From the NCBI RefSeq assembly GCF_017751145.1, contig NZ_CP046640.1, positions 1,344,137 to 1,408,136 on the forward strand: 64,000 nt of DNA. The letters are read 5' to 3'. The notes beneath the pieces are model-generated. The model did not search any database. It was given only the letters and a program-made list of their open reading frames with translations, and was not told the origin of the DNA. Position 1 is the first letter of the stretch. Each line of letters opens with the position of its first letter. Positions 42,992 to 49,500 of this stretch are shown here, in pieces. The stretch comes from Iocasia fonsfrigidae (GTDB lineage Bacteria > Bacillota > Halanaerobiia > Halanaerobiales > DTU029). Made by a program: the position numbers and the translations under genes.

Positions 42992-43917
42992 GTTTAATCA
43001 GGAGAGAAACACCTTTCATCTTTAAGCTAAGGATACAAGTTATGTGATGGAGATTGTTAGTACTGGACATTTGTTGCATCTTTACTGGGGTAAAAAAATT
43101 AATACTGAGCTTGATTTAAGGTCTTTATTACCTGCGGGATTACGTAAAGGACATTTAAAATCAGAAAAGGCAAATAATTTTTCTTTAGATAATATTCCCC
43201 AAGAATATCCTGCCTATGGTCACACTGATTTTCGGCAACCAGCTTATCAAATTAAATTAGAAGGGCTCTACAGTTAGTAATTTATTTTGATTTTGATGAA
43301 GAGAAATTATTTGAGATTGCTAAAGAAGGTAAAAAACTGGGTCTGGAGTTATTTGTGTTGGATGATGGTTGGTTTGGTAAGCGTAATGATGATACTAGTT
43401 CTCTGGGAGATTGGTTTGTAGATAGATCAAAATTACCTAATGGTCTGGATTCACTTGTTAAAAAAATAAATGGGCTGGGACTTAGATTTGGACTCTGGTT
43501 TGAACCAGAGATGGTCTCTCCGGAGAGTAAACTTTATAAGAAACATCCAGACTGGTGTATTCATGTTAAGGGGAGAAACCGTTCTCAGGCCAGAAGTCAG
43601 TTAATTCTTGATGTCCATTTGAGGGGAATAATGATACAGCCTGGATGGTAGTTTCTAAAAATAGAGAAGAAGCACTTGCGGCTTTTTATAAAGTCCTGGC
43701 TGAGCCTAACCCCTCTTATAGGAGGCTAAAATTAAAAGGACTTAAAGAAGATGGGATTTATAGGCTTAAGAATAGCAAAAAACTCTATGGTGGAGATGAG
43801 CTAATGTATGCTGGTTTAAATCTTCCACATGGATTTAATGGTGTGCAAGAAGATGGAACTATTTTTAAAGGTGACTTTCAATCTATACTCTGGCATTTTG
43901 AGCTTGTAAATAGATAA
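42981..43917 (+). pseudogene. GH36 alpha-galactosidase, broken into fragments
   Basis: ATG 42981 (after AAGGAGG) starts [14 protein letters not shown], then an in-frame TAA at 43023, then AKDTSYVMEIVSTGHLLHLYWGKK and PAYGHTDFRQPAYQIK, the GH36 N-terminal domain. A deletion near 43262-43285 jumps to YFDFDEEKLFEIA and FVLDDGWFGKRNDDTSSLGDW. A second near 43615-43625 jumps from QLILDV to GNNDTAWMVVSKNREEAL and the C-terminal domain. The segment with the catalytic nucleophile is lost. A normal enzyme is about 730 residues; less than half remains. Confidence 0.9.
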
Positions 43918-43991
43918 TCTTGAAATTGTTGAATTTGAAGATAAATATTAGTTTTAGGGTATTAAGATAATTCAATCAAGAGGGGTTTTAA

Positions 43992-44474
43992 GTGGATACA
44001 AATAAATTATTGGAGTTCAAGAAATCAGTTGAAAAAGAAAAAGATAATCTGTTCAACTTTTGGATAGAAAATGCTGTTGATGAGGAAAATGATGGTTTTT
44101 ATGGTGAGATAGCTAATGAAGGTAAGGTTAATTATACTGCTGATAAATCACTAATTTTAAATACCCGTATTCTCTGGAGTTTTAGTAATGCCTACCGAGA
44201 AGATAAAAAAGAAGAGTATTTGGCGATGGCCAAGAGGGTTGCTAGCTATTCACTAAATAATTTCTGGGACCAGGAATATGGTGGGTTTTACTGGCTGTTG
44301 GATTATCAGGGAAAAGTGGCAACAATATCATGACCGTAGGATACAATGTCCGGGTTGATTAATGAACAGGGAAGGCCTTCTGATGAAGCCAAGGTTAATC
44401 CCTGGAAGTCTCCTTATCATAATAGTAGGGCCTGTTATGAGATAATCAATCGTCTTACTACAATTATGTTATAA
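43992..44474 (+). pseudogene. Cellobiose/mannobiose 2-epimerase remnant
   Basis: TTG/GTG-region start after AGAGGGG. The first about 108 residues (FNFWIENAVDEENDGFYGEI, ADKSLILNTRILWSFSNAYRE, YSLNNFWDQEYGGFYWLLDYQG) match the N-terminus of cellobiose 2-epimerase of the AGE family. The frame breaks at about 44330. About 20 bases later another frame reads INEQGRPSDEAKVNPWKSPYHNSRACYEIINRL to a stop at 44474, which is the normal C-terminus. Some 250 residues between are deleted. The enzyme would have converted mannobiose to mannosyl-glucose for GH130. Confidence 0.88.
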
Positions 44475-44721: not shown

Positions 44722-44752
44722 TTGTCAACCTAAAAAAAAATTAAGTTGACAA
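44722..44752. promoter_or_regulatory. BirA-type biotin operator
   Basis: TTGTCAAC (44722-44729), a 15-base spacer and GTTGACAA (44745-44752) form a perfect inverted repeat matching the bacterial BirA box (TTGTnAAC-N15-GTTnACAA). It overlaps the -35 element of the bio promoter, so biotinyl-AMP-bound BirA would block transcription when biotin is plentiful. Confidence 0.92.
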
Positions 44753-44774
44753 TAAGAAGAAGAGGAGTTATAAT
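44746..44774 (+). promoter_or_regulatory. Consensus promoter of the biotin operon
   Basis: TTGACA (44746-44751), a 17-base spacer and TATAAT (44769-44774), a perfect consensus. The -35 box is part of the BirA operator's right arm. Confidence 0.9.
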
Positions 44775-44848
44775 ATATACTAATTTAACTGTTATATATT
44801 ACCTAAAGTTAATGATTTAAAATTTAGAATCCATATGAGGTGAATAAG

Positions 44849-45556
44849 ATGAGTAAAGGAATATTTATTATTGGAACTGATACTGATGTTGGTAAGTCTG
44901 TAATTACAGCTGGTTTAGTATATTTATTAAGAAATAATGGTTATAATGCCTGTAGTTTTAAAGCAGTACAAAGTGGTGGAGTAAAAAAAGATGGGAAATT
45001 AATTGCTGAAGATGTTGAGTTAGTAAAACAACTTTGCAATTTAACTGAAAAACAAGAAAATATGGTCCCTTATTGTTTTGAACCTGCAGTATCTCCCCAT
45101 CTGGCGGCACGTTTAACCGGAGTTGAGATTAAAAAGGAAAAAATAATAGAGGCTTATAATAATTTAGCACAAAGGTATGAATACATAATTGCTGAAGGAA
45201 GTGGTGGTTTAATAGTACCTTTAATTAAAAATGATTATTTTATATATGACCTGGTCAAAGATTTAAATTTACCGATAGTTATTGTAAGTAGGGCAGGTGT
45301 TGGAACTATAAATCATACTATTTTAACTGTTGAGTATTGTTATAAGTTGGGACTTGAAATAAAAGGAATACTTTTAAATAGATATACAGGGAAGGAATAT
45401 GAAAAAGATAATATCAGAACTATAGAAAATTTAAGCGGACAAAAAGTGCTAAGTATAGCTGATATAAAGGATATAAATCATAATTATGATAAGTTAAAAG
45501 ATGAGTTTGAAAGCAAGTTTGATATTAAAAATGTAATAAATATGTTTGAAAACTAA
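44849..45556 (+). CDS. bioD: Dethiobiotin synthetase
   Basis: 235 residues. The P-loop is IIGTDTDVGKSVITAGL, then FKAVQSGG, VSPHLAARLTG and EGSGGLIVPL, the family motifs. It closes the ureido ring: 7,8-diaminopelargonate plus CO2 and ATP gives dethiobiotin. ATG 44849 is 8 bases after GAGG; a GTG at 44840 lies in that site. It is first in the operon although it acts next to last in the pathway. Confidence 0.95.
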   Translation: MSKGIFIIGTDTDVGKSVITAGLVYLLRNNGYNACSFKAVQSGGVKKDGKLIAEDVELVKQLCNLTEKQENMVPYCFEPAVSPHLAARLTGVEIKKEKIIEAYNNLAQRYEYIIAEGSGGLIVPLIKNDYFIYDLVKDLNLPIVIVSRAGVGTINHTILTVEYCYKLGLEIKGILLNRYTGKEYEKDNIRTIENLSGQKVLSIADIKDINHNYDKLKDEFESKFDIKNVINMFEN

Positions 45557-45561
45557 AAGAT

Positions 45562-45617
45562 TCTGTTCGAAAAATATCAGTATATATCGCTGAGGATTAT
45601 ATTTTTTCGAACACAGA
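45562..45617. repeat. Dispersed palindromic repeat, copy 2 (complete)
   Basis: CTGTTCGAAAAATATCAG (45563-45580), a 9-base centre and CTGAGGATTATATTTT running to TTCGAACACAG (45590-45616) fold into a nearly complete hairpin. The same sequence, with one arm degraded, is at 19308-19353. It lies between bioD and bioA and could lower distal expression or simply be a mobile palindrome. Confidence 0.75.
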
Positions 45618-45649
45618 CTAAAATTCAATTATATTAGGGAGTGTTAAGA

Positions 45650-46996
45650 ATGAATAATTTACAAAAAAAGGACTTGAAATATATATGGCATCCTTGTTCA
45701 CAGATGAAGGATTATGAAGAATTGCCACCAATTGTTATTGAAAAGGGGGAAGGGGTATTCCTATATGATACAGAAGGACATAGCTATCTGGATGCTATTT
45801 CCTCCTGGTGGGCTAGTCTGTTAGGGCATAATCATAAGCGTATCAAAGGGGCAATAAATGAACAGATAAACAAATTGGAACACATAATGTTGGCCAATTT
45901 TTCCCATGAACCAGCAATTGAACTTGCCGAAAAAATAGTTGCTAAAACCCCTGACCGATTAGAAAAAGTCTTTTTTGCTAGTGATGGAGCATCATCTGTA
46001 GAAGTTGCTTTAAAATTAAGTTTTCAATATTTTCAAGAAGTCGGCAAACCTCAAAAAACTAAGTTTGCCTCCCTTTCAAATTCATACCATGGTGATACTT
46101 TAGGGGCTCTGGCAGTTTCTGATTTAGGAATATATAGGGATGTTTTTAATCCTATATTATGTGACACTATTCAAATAGAAGGACCAGATTGTTATCGTTG
46201 TCAATTTGGGTTAAATAGGGAAAATTGCCAGGCAGAGTGTTTTAAAAAACTGGAAGAAACATTTGACGAATATCACGAGAAACTCGCTTCTATTATAGTA
46301 GAACCGATTGTACAGGGAGCAGGAGGAATGATGATCTATTCACCAGTCTATTTAAAAAAATTAAGACAATTATGTGATAAATATGATGTTTTATTGATTG
46401 ATGATGAAATAGCTATGGGAATGGGCAGGACTGGAAAATTATTTGCCTGTGAACATGCCGGCATTTCGCCTGATATAATGACCATTTCCAAAGGAATTAC
46501 GGCTGGTACTTTACCGCTTTCCTTAACTGTTATCTCTGACAAAATATATGATGCTTTTTATGATGATTATACAAAGGGCAGGTCATTTCTACATAGTCAT
46601 ACTTATAGTGGAAATCCGGTGGCCTGTGCAGTAGCCTGTGAAACATTAGATATATTTGAAGAAGAAAATATACTTGAAAAAAATAAAGAGAAGTCAGAGA
46701 TACTTAAAGCTAAGATAGAAGAATATTTATTGGACCTACCTCAGGTTGGTGATTTTAGACATATCGGTATCTTAGGGGCTGTAGAATTAGTTAAAGACAC
46801 AAAAAGGAAAGAACCGTTCAATTGGAAAGATAGAGTAGGTTTTGAAATTTATAAAAATGCTTTAAGAAATGGTCTTATTTTGCGTCCACTAGGTGATATT
46901 ATTTATTTTATGCCTGCTTTTATTATCAATGAAGAAGAGATAGAGTTTATGGTTAAAACCGCCAGAAAATCTATTAAAGAATATTTTGAATCATAA
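45650..46996 (+). CDS. bioA: Adenosylmethionine-8-amino-7-oxononanoate aminotransferase
   Basis: 448 residues, class III PLP aminotransferase. YIWHPCSQMKDYEELPP is the BioA N-terminal signature, then SSWWASLLGHNHKRI, SYHGDTLGALAVSD, LLIDDEIAMGMGRTGKLFACE and the PLP lysine in TISKGITAGTLPLSL (about residue 280). It converts 7-keto-8-aminopelargonate to the diamine. ATG 45650 is 8 bases after AGGGAG. Confidence 0.96.
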   Translation: MNNLQKKDLKYIWHPCSQMKDYEELPPIVIEKGEGVFLYDTEGHSYLDAISSWWASLLGHNHKRIKGAINEQINKLEHIMLANFSHEPAIELAEKIVAKTPDRLEKVFFASDGASSVEVALKLSFQYFQEVGKPQKTKFASLSNSYHGDTLGALAVSDLGIYRDVFNPILCDTIQIEGPDCYRCQFGLNRENCQAECFKKLEETFDEYHEKLASIIVEPIVQGAGGMMIYSPVYLKKLRQLCDKYDVLLIDDEIAMGMGRTGKLFACEHAGISPDIMTISKGITAGTLPLSLTVISDKIYDAFYDDYTKGRSFLHSHTYSGNPVACAVACETLDIFEEENILEKNKEKSEILKAKIEEYLLDLPQVGDFRHIGILGAVELVKDTKRKEPFNWKDRVGFEIYKNALRNGLILRPLGDIIYFMPAFIINEEEIEFMVKTARKSIKEYFES

Positions 46997-47030
46997 GCAT
47001 TGCATAATCAGACTAAGTGGAGGGAAATAG

Positions 47031-47531
47031 ATGAACAAAACAAGGGAATTAACATTAATTAGTTTGTTAGCAGTGATTATTACAATTTCGGGATCCTTTA
47101 GAATACCTGGACCATTACCGGGAACAGAATTTCAATTATCTGCACCTATAGCAGTAGCCATTACAGTGGTATTTGGATTTAGGAGATACATAATAGCGGG
47201 TATTATAGCCAGTGCTATTAGTTTAACACTTGGAATTCATACTATAATTAATGTAATTATAGCTATGACATTCAGGTTTGTAGCAGGAGGGATTATTTAC
47301 TTTTTTAAACCTGGGTTTATACCTGTTATAATTGCTGGGCCACTAGGGTCTATAACTGCCAGAATTATGCTGTGCTTATTTTTTGGAAATCCCCTTTTGG
47401 CCATGTTAATAGCAGGATTACCAGGTATGCTATATACTGCTATAACAGCCTGGCCATTAAGTAAATTACTAGCAAAAATAAAATATTGCACACCCTGGAG
47501 GGAAACAAGATATGAAGGAAGATCTCTATAG
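47031..47531 (+). CDS. Putative ECF-type S component in the biotin operon
   Basis: 166 residues, five or six membrane segments, no signal peptide. The N-terminus KTRELTLISLLAVIITISGSFRIPG and the size fit substrate-capture (S) components of ECF vitamin transporters, but it does not read as standard BioY. It is encoded between bioA and bioW and overlaps bioW by 20 bases, so it is tightly coupled to the pimelate-activating step. Pimelate or another biotin precursor is a reasonable guess at substrate. No ECF ATPase or T component is nearby; a shared energising module is presumed. Confidence 0.6.
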   Translation: MNKTRELTLISLLAVIITISGSFRIPGPLPGTEFQLSAPIAVAITVVFGFRRYIIAGIIASAISLTLGIHTIINVIIAMTFRFVAGGIIYFFKPGFIPVIIAGPLGSITARIMLCLFFGNPLLAMLIAGLPGMLYTAITAWPLSKLLAKIKYCTPWRETRYEGRSL

Positions 47532-48309
47532 TATTAAAATGAGGTCTACCAGGAATACAAAGCATATTTCTGGTGCAGAAAGAATAATTTTAGAAAAGGA
47601 TATGGGGTTATCAGTTAAACAACTAATAACAAGGGCTTTAGGCCACAGTAAAGGGAAGTCGGATTTTATAAATATAAAGATACAAAACATAGTTAAGCAA
47701 GATATTGAATATATTAATCCTTTAGATATAAGAACTGTTATAACAAATGATTATTTTGAAGGAAGGGAATGTGCCCTTAAAGCACTAAAAAAAAATGGTT
47801 TATCAGCCGAAACATCTCACTTGGTGTTTAATATGTTAAAGGAATGTCGTACTATGCGAGGGGCAATTCTTTTCGAAATAAATTCCAGAGAAAGACTTGA
47901 AGCAGATAAGAAGAGGGGGGTACGAGTTACTAATATAGATTGGAGTTTTAATGTAAAGCAAGAGCTAGATAAAGCATTAGCAAGAGCAAATTTGAATAAT
48001 AGCCATGTTAAAGAAGCAGTTGCACTGGCAAGTAAAGTTTGCAGTGCCCCGGGTATTATTGCCGAGTTATGTTGGTCTGATGATCCAGATTATACTGCTG
48101 GTTATGTTGCTTCTAAAGATTTAGGCTATATGAGAATTACTAAATTAAAGCCTTTTGGTAGTAATAATGGTGGCAGGGTGTTTTGTTTTGATTCTTCAAA
48201 GGCATCAATAGAAAAATGTATAGAATATTTACAGGAGAAAATAACTCTGGTTAATAGGGTTCCTGTGATAAATAATAATATTTGCTATAGCCAATTTTTT
48301 TCAGTATAA
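47512..48309 (+). CDS. bioW: 6-carboxyhexanoate-CoA ligase (pimeloyl-CoA synthetase)
   Basis: 265 residues. The signature RNTKHISGAERII lies near the N-terminus, followed by RALGHSKGKSDFINIKIQ, RGAILFEINSRERLEADKKRGVRVTNIDW and SCWSDDPDYTAGYVAS-like motifs (here ELCWSDDPDYTAGY). It activates free pimelate with ATP and CoA, so this organism starts biotin from pimelate, not through the BioC-BioH route. It starts inside the membrane protein gene and is followed by bioF. Confidence 0.94.
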   Translation: MKEDLYSIKMRSTRNTKHISGAERIILEKDMGLSVKQLITRALGHSKGKSDFINIKIQNIVKQDIEYINPLDIRTVITNDYFEGRECALKALKKNGLSAETSHLVFNMLKECRTMRGAILFEINSRERLEADKKRGVRVTNIDWSFNVKQELDKALARANLNNSHVKEAVALASKVCSAPGIIAELCWSDDPDYTAGYVASKDLGYMRITKLKPFGSNNGGRVFCFDSSKASIEKCIEYLQEKITLVNRVPVINNNICYSQFFSV

Positions 48310-48325
48310 GTGGGTGATAAAACTA

Positions 48326-49489
48326 ATGGATTTTATAGATGAACATTTAAATCATATAAAAGATAAGGGTCTATATCGGGATTTTAAATTTTTTACTAGC
48401 TCACAAAGCAAATATACTTCAATAGATAATAGAAGAGTATTATTAATGGCTTCTAATAATTATTTAGATTTATGTGCTGATGACAGGTTAAAGGAAGCAG
48501 CAGAAAAAGCAATCTATACATATGGAGTAGGCTCAGGTGGTTCAAGATTAATTACAGGGAGCTGTAAACTCCATGATCAGTTAGAAAAAAAGATAGCAGA
48601 TTTCAAAGGTGCCGAGGCTGCAATTATTTTTAATACAGGGTATATGGCTAATATAGGTACAATAACAGCGATTTCTGATCAGGAATGGATTATATTTAGT
48701 GATGAATTAAATCATGCCAGTATTATAGATGGATGTAGATTAAGTGGTGCTAAGGTTGTTATCTATAAACACTGTAACCTGGATCACTTGCAGGAAAAAA
48801 TAAAGATTCATCAAGGTAAGAAGAGATTAATTGTGACAGATGGGGTCTTTAGTATGGATGGAGATATAGCTCCACTGGATAAAATAGTGGAATTAGCTAA
48901 AGAAAATAAGATTTTAACAATGGTTGATGATGCTCATGGTACAGGTGTTCTGGGAGACAATGGTGCAGGTTCGGTAGAACATTTTAACTTAAAAGGAGAT
49001 ATTGATATACAGGTAGGAACTTTTAGCAAAGCCCTTGCCAGTGAGGGTGGTTTTGTGGTCGGAAGTAAAAGCTTAATAGAATATTTACGACATAAGGCCA
49101 GGAGTTTTATCTATTCAACAGCATTATCTCCAGTTACTATTGCAGTTTCTTTGCGTTCTTTAGATATTGTGAAAAATGAGAGAGAGCCAAGGGTCAAGCT
49201 CCTTGAAAACTCAAAATGGTTTCAGGCAAAGTTAAGGAAGCTTGGCTTTAATGTCTTAGAAAGCAAAACAGCAATTATTGCCTTAATAATAGGTAATGCA
49301 GCAAAGGCTAGAAAATTAAGTGAAAAATTATTTGAAGAAGGCATTTTTATTACAGCAATTAGACCCCCAACTGTACCTGATAATACTAGTCGCTTAAGAA
49401 TTACACTGATGTCTACCCATAATAGAAAAGATTTGAAATTTGCTTTAGAAAGATTAAAAAAAGCAGGAATGGAATTAGATGTTATTTAG
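48326..49489 (+). CDS. bioF: 8-amino-7-oxononanoate synthase
   Basis: 387 residues, alpha-oxoamine synthase family: YGVGSGGSRLITGSCKLHDQLE, FSDELNHASIIDG, VTDGVFSMDGDIAPL, VDDAHGTGVLG and the PLP lysine in VGTFSKALASEGGFVVG (about residue 235). It joins pimeloyl-CoA and alanine. ATG 48326 lies about 9 bases after GGGTG. It is the last gene of the operon; biotin synthase (bioB) is not in the window. Confidence 0.95.
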   Translation: MDFIDEHLNHIKDKGLYRDFKFFTSSQSKYTSIDNRRVLLMASNNYLDLCADDRLKEAAEKAIYTYGVGSGGSRLITGSCKLHDQLEKKIADFKGAEAAIIFNTGYMANIGTITAISDQEWIIFSDELNHASIIDGCRLSGAKVVIYKHCNLDHLQEKIKIHQGKKRLIVTDGVFSMDGDIAPLDKIVELAKENKILTMVDDAHGTGVLGDNGAGSVEHFNLKGDIDIQVGTFSKALASEGGFVVGSKSLIEYLRHKARSFIYSTALSPVTIAVSLRSLDIVKNEREPRVKLLENSKWFQAKLRKLGFNVLESKTAIIALIIGNAAKARKLSEKLFEEGIFITAIRPPTVPDNTSRLRITLMSTHNRKDLKFALERLKKAGMELDVI

Positions 49490-49500
49490 TATTAAGTATT

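Follow-up and report, generated by a model that had tools for sequence, protein, structure and literature searches.

Pimelate is the seven-carbon raw material of biotin and is activated by BioW, while the P450 enzyme BioI (CYP107H) makes pimeloyl-acyl carrier protein. Organisms that use BioW need pimelate in free form, and a dedicated importer would explain one route by which it is supplied. The closest described biotin operons are reported as bioXWF and bioDAYB in Bacillus sphaericus (2024 review, PMC11089781) and as bioDABFWX in Staphylococcus aureus (PMC12642757), and the same review describes the pathway that makes pimelate as unknown even in Bacillus subtilis. Here we analyse a 64-kb stretch of the Iocasia fonsfrigidae genome (NZ_CP046640.1, positions 1,344,137 to 1,408,136; the window), whose biotin operon, bioD-bioA-X-bioW-bioF, includes a gene (X) for a membrane protein that overlaps bioW. 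X is a member of the BioX family and we propose, with a probability of about 0.6, that BioX would act like the substrate-binding (S) component of an energy-coupling factor (ECF) transporter, as an importer or re-catcher bringing free pimelate to BioW.

Gene order marks the membrane protein X as BioX

The first relative of X, 79% identical, was found in Anaerovirgula multivorans, where the gene order is bioB-X-bioW-bioF-bioD-bioA. Further relatives were present in two genomes of the same class (bioB-X-bioW) and on three plasmids (loci L008, L009 and L010), from Mammaliicoccus sciuri, Staphylococcus equorum and S. xylosus, of which two carry bioD-A-B-F-W-X and the third bioW-X; the bioA of L009, absent from its gene table, was recovered by tblastn as two pieces. 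These plasmid copies are annotated as QueT family or as hypothetical, and the bioW-bioX remnant adjoins IS257. No relative of X was found in the viral contigs searched, and PDB searches gave no relevant match. Among cellular genomes, G820 carries X-bioW-bioF together with a separate bioD-bioA-bioY-bioB operon, and G655 carries bioD-A-B-F-W-X, the X of both being of the same family. These arrangements match bioXWF/bioDAYB and bioDABFWX, and X is therefore BioX, as judged by gene order rather than by comparison with published BioX sequences. The protein thus already had a name, the old gene name from B. sphaericus, and in the open-access literature (subscription journals and preprints being outside this scope) we found neither an established BioX function nor a named pimelate transporter of bioW operons.

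Conservation across the family is centred on P26, the motif G-x-E-FQLSAP, E33 and the basic positions K/R24, K/R52, R82 and R111 (alignment A6). Family members are highly hydrophobic and carry several membrane segments, the exact helix count being uncertain. Such a composition speaks against a role as acyl carrier protein in the synthesis of pimeloyl-CoA, which was raised as a possibility in a 2025 S. aureus paper (PMC12642757), and the Pfam matches of 25 members at E ≤1 included no carrier-protein model; we put the likelihood of such a role at next to nil.

X depends on bioW, and bioW does not depend on X

The co-occurrence of X with bioW was profiled in two samples, 398 genomes from the phylum and 398 from the Bacilli-like class of genome G247. 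The family profile gave 16 matches in the phylum sample, 13 of them strong (E <1e-42), and all 13 strong genes adjoin bioW. Two of the weak matches were discarded (a PF07456 protein in G355 and MreD in G110), while the third, in G222, was retained as a broken X. In the class sample, X was found in 18 genomes, all of which carry bioW, with the two genes adjacent in 15. Over both samples, strong homologues of X thus occurred in bioW genomes in 31 of 31 cases and beside bioW in 28, so that they do not lie mostly away from it. Given that bioW itself was above the cut-off in only 26/398 phylum and 49/398 class genomes (BioW matches under the curated cut-off, in phylum genome G403 and class genomes G713, G403 and G696, were excluded), the association gave Fisher p values, which ignore shared ancestry, of 1.3e-17 and 1.7e-18, respectively.

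The dependence runs one way: bioW often occurs without X (no intact X in 13/26 phylum and 31/49 class bioW genomes), whereas strong X never occurs without bioW, a pattern that fits an accessory for BioW's substrate. Broken and missing copies illustrate the loss. In G222 (G222:C37; L025, L044), bioF and bioW are intact and flank a decayed bioX; the operon of G154 is the same but for the loss of bioX; and within one genus, G154 and G288 lack X while G187 has it. bioX can therefore be lost while bioW persists.

Where the two genes adjoin, their open reading frames (ORFs) overlap by 4 to 32 bases in 21 of the 23 junctions measured, with start codons picked by ribosome-site likeness. In the window the overlap is 20 bases (47512-47531), and GGAGGG, the likely ribosome-binding site of bioW, sits within the X ORF. 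Overlapping translation suits a protein complex as well as a shared pathway, and the direction of transport is unreadable from sequence, so that BioX might instead anchor BioW to the membrane or partner it in assembly, or else export or buffer pimelate. We consider this quite unlikely, as half or more of bioW genomes manage without X and the weak S-component affinity described below suggests uptake.

X and BioI tend to replace each other

BioI-like P450s were sought in 74 bioW genomes (E ≤1e-20), using as query the protein of G484, where it follows bioW-bioF. They were found in 1 of 32 X-bearing but 22 of 42 X-lacking bioW genomes (p 2.4e-6), and the difference also held within the class set (1/18 with X versus 22/31 without; p 6.6e-6), although not every one of these P450s need be BioI, the 27-29% identity matches in G618 and G806 being doubtful. 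In the sole genome with both, G449, the P450 lies on a different contig. Conversely, in the seven genomes with a P450 within ~6 kb of bioW (G247, G362, G456, G484, G521, G556 and G578), X is missing throughout. The exchange is visible even within single genera: genus g292 has X in G449, G532 and G554 and the P450 in G484, G521 and G587, with both in G449, and genus g354 has X in G576 and the P450 in G597. X and BioI thus tend to replace each other, which seems to point to the pimelate step. In B. subtilis, BioI is non-essential and its product is not usable by BioF (PMC7645780).

X resembles ECF S components weakly but concordantly

X had been read from the window's letters as a membrane protein other than BioY, and this was upheld: none of 25 X members matched the BioY model PF02632 at E ≤1, and a separate BioY is encoded in 31 of 32 X-bearing genomes (the exception being G216). 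Such weak similarities as were found were to S components. The QueT model PF06177 matched 2 of the 25 members, both staphylococcal/Mammaliicoccus, at 5.5e-6 (best 27.2 bits, below the curated cut-off of 33.7), while the riboflavin-type model PF07155 and the EcfS model TIGR04522 matched one member each (0.0014 and 6.3e-4), and the only, weak, genome matches of the window's own X were PF07155 S components. In profile-profile comparison (hhalign), the X family aligned with two ECF-ribofla_trS (PF07155) proteins at E 1.6e-5, or 4.6e-8 once a PF07456 protein joined the pair. For comparison, the negative control, EcfT against the X profile, gave E 0.028, and the positive control, BioY against QueT, both accepted S families, only E 0.0082. 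Together these similarities, weak as they are, would place X near the ECF S components.

Separately, one PF07155/PF12822 S component of the same genome (G000:C1:3451434; L007), with no substrate assigned, stands beside an AIR-synthase-like protein, as read by eye, and an S component in G048 (L006) has the same neighbour; the other flank of L007 is glutamine synthetase.

The membership of X in the biotin regulon and its distantly BioY-like N-terminus might indicate import or recapture of biotin itself or of a late intermediate (7-keto-8-aminopelargonic acid or dethiobiotin). This is very unlikely, given that nearly all X genomes already possess BioY, that X tracks bioW and not the ring genes (0/31 strong homologues without bioW), and that it alternates with a pimeloyl-supply enzyme. 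That BioX transports pimelate, or facilitates its passage, independently of an ECF module, either as a secondary carrier or as an S-like protein acting on its own, is unlikely, but less so: all of the genomic evidence for pimelate import applies to this reading equally, the operon bioD-bioA-X-bioW-bioF holds no ECF genes and the S-component similarity is weak. Against this reading stand the profile matches that exist, which point to S components, and the presence of EcfT (PF02361) in 32/32 X-bearing genomes, a requirement for an ECF S component that discriminates weakly. The suggestion in the sequence-only reading of an ECF S-type pimelate importer accordingly fared differently in its two parts, as the genomics favours a pimelate-related substrate, while the ECF S type stays an inference from weak similarity.

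Regulation, layout and mobility of the operon

The features of the operon are collected in Table 1; bioD, bioA and bioF exceed the equivalog cut-offs. The BirA operator at its head was the sole match in the window at ≤2 mismatches (chance expectation 0.09), and its 3' half furnishes the TTGACA (-35 box) of the overlapping promoter, which was the only one of 26 promoter-like matches in the operon stretch to agree with consensus throughout. Across the 3.93-Mb genome, the operator pattern occurred at just two sites at ≤1 mismatch, each with 0 mismatches, as against no sites for the reversed control. The second, TTGTTAACC-N13-GGTTGACAA, heads bioB and then bioY (G000:C1:1452699). The operon had been taken to be biotin-controlled from its operator and promoter, and a further BirA-controlled locus had been predicted because it has no bioB; the genome bears out both, bioB lying ~66 kb off together with bioY. 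Across the family, a scan of 22 loci showed BirA-like boxes (≤2 mismatches) ahead of X in 11, with single-base shuffles as control and some start positions approximate.

Table 1 Features of the biotin operon and of the second BirA-controlled locus of the genome.
Feature	Position	Strand	Details
BirA operator, TTGTCAAC-N15-GTTGACAA	44722..44752	+	0 mismatches
Sigma-A-type promoter, TTGACA-17-TATAAT, overlapping the operator	44746..44774	+	12/12 consensus positions
bioD, dethiobiotin synthase	44849..45556	+	TIGR00347, 151.7 bits; PF13500; alternative GTG start 44840
bioA, 7,8-diaminopelargonic acid (DAPA) aminotransferase	45650..46996	+	TIGR00508, 560.6 bits
bioX-bioW-bioF, candidate exchange block	47022..49490	+	78.7% DNA identity over 2470 bases with Anaerovirgula multivorans
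X, BioX-family membrane protein, 166 aa; proposed S-component-like pimelate importer	47031..47531	+	
bioW, pimeloyl-CoA synthetase	47512..48309	+	PF03744, 285.7 bits
bioF	48314..49489	+	TIGR00858, 465.8 bits
bioB-bioY locus	G000:C1:1452600-1454500 (outside the window)		behind the second perfect BirA operator

The segment from X to bioF is closer to its Anaerovirgula counterpart than are the bioA and bioD pieces (67% and 71% DNA identity), and X was found in 0 of 37 genomes of the window's own family or order. From this combination, X, bioW and bioF appear to travel together as one module.

An Rfam search of the operon gave no matches. The bioD-bioA gap contains an inverted repeat (45564-45615; -14.8 kcal/mol, z -1.9) that amounts to a weak hairpin, lacks any Rfam match and does not recur within the window. 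Just upstream of the operon, short ORFs at 43044-44333, which by eye resemble fragments of an alpha-galactosidase together with a truncated sugar epimerase, are probably gene remnants.

Discussion

Taken together, these genomic data support well a substrate of the pimelate class for BioX, while its coupling to an ECF module we infer from the profile similarities. In the mechanism that we propose, BioX would fold into six helices in the manner of an ECF S component and bind the pimelate dianion through K/R24, R82, R111 and perhaps K/R52. It would either dock on a shared EcfA-EcfA'-EcfT module, with uptake driven by ATP, or work alone. When biotin runs short, BirA would leave the operator, so that BioX and BioW are made together, and pimelate that is taken up, or that has leaked and been re-caught, would at once be activated to pimeloyl-CoA for BioF. 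Since cells may also produce pimelate themselves, some bearers of bioW would be able to dispense with BioX. There is a parallel for recapture in S. aureus, which in the absence of BioY leaks biotin that BioY normally regains (PMC12642757). The fuller proposition, that BioX binds pimelate with high affinity as an ECF S component and has spread with bioX-bioW-bioF modules across Firmicutes and onto staphylococcal plasmids, is tentative and in our judgement falls a little short of even odds.

Several observations weigh against an S-component-like pimelate importer. X alone has no family model, having given no significant match in Pfam, NCBIfam, PHROG or PDB chains; its profile matches span mainly the N-terminal 48-67 columns; comparison with the QueT profile was weak (E 0.011); and an AlphaFold model from two sequences (that of the window and L002) was unusable, with a pLDDT of 45. 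EcfT is, to our knowledge, near-universal in Firmicutes, so its presence discriminates little. The alternation with BioI may be partly phylogenetic. In three genomes of one staphylococcal-like genus (G664, G542 and G496; L070, L071 and L072), X lies away from bioW, which these genomes retain, and behind an ahpF-like gene (translation read by eye); the detached copies are 33-36% identical, and no recognisable BirA box was found in the 500 bases upstream of them. As for uptake itself, Ploux et al. in 1992 reportedly favoured passive diffusion for pimelate in B. sphaericus, and we know of no bioX in B. subtilis. The latter species incorporates exogenous pimelate (PMC7645780), so import through BioX would not be strictly essential.

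If BioX does bring pimelate to BioW, the bioX gene, which has its name from B. sphaericus and was lately guessed to encode an acyl carrier protein in S. aureus, would gain a function, as a route of pimelate uptake or recapture that stands in for BioI. Free pimelate would then be a nutrient shared or leaked within bacterial communities. A dedicated importer would also matter for predicting biotin auxotrophy and cross-feeding and for industrial biotin production from pimelate. The substrate of an ECF S component would in this case be a C7 dicarboxylate and not a vitamin or metal. What is new is probably this substrate of an S-component-like importer, the gene name itself being old, and the linkage statistics yield one specific and directly testable hypothesis joining a gene to a substrate.

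Comparison with known systems

Among S components, the biotin-specific BioY is likewise a small membrane protein of the BirA regulon, with a weak N-terminal similarity to X in profile-profile comparison (E 4.6e-5 over 48 columns). QueT differs from X in that the window's genome encodes a separate QueT elsewhere, and the riboflavin-type S components (PF07155, PF12822) resemble X through weak matches. BioI, like BioX, is an accessory gene of bioW operons that seemingly fills the same pimelate-supply slot; unlike BioX, it is an enzyme and no membrane protein, and the two are largely exclusive. The closest counterparts are the BioX proteins of Lysinibacillus (Bacillus) sphaericus and S. aureus, whose gene orders recur in G820 and G655; unlike bioXWF and bioDABFWX, the window operon has five genes and carries X between bioA and bioW.

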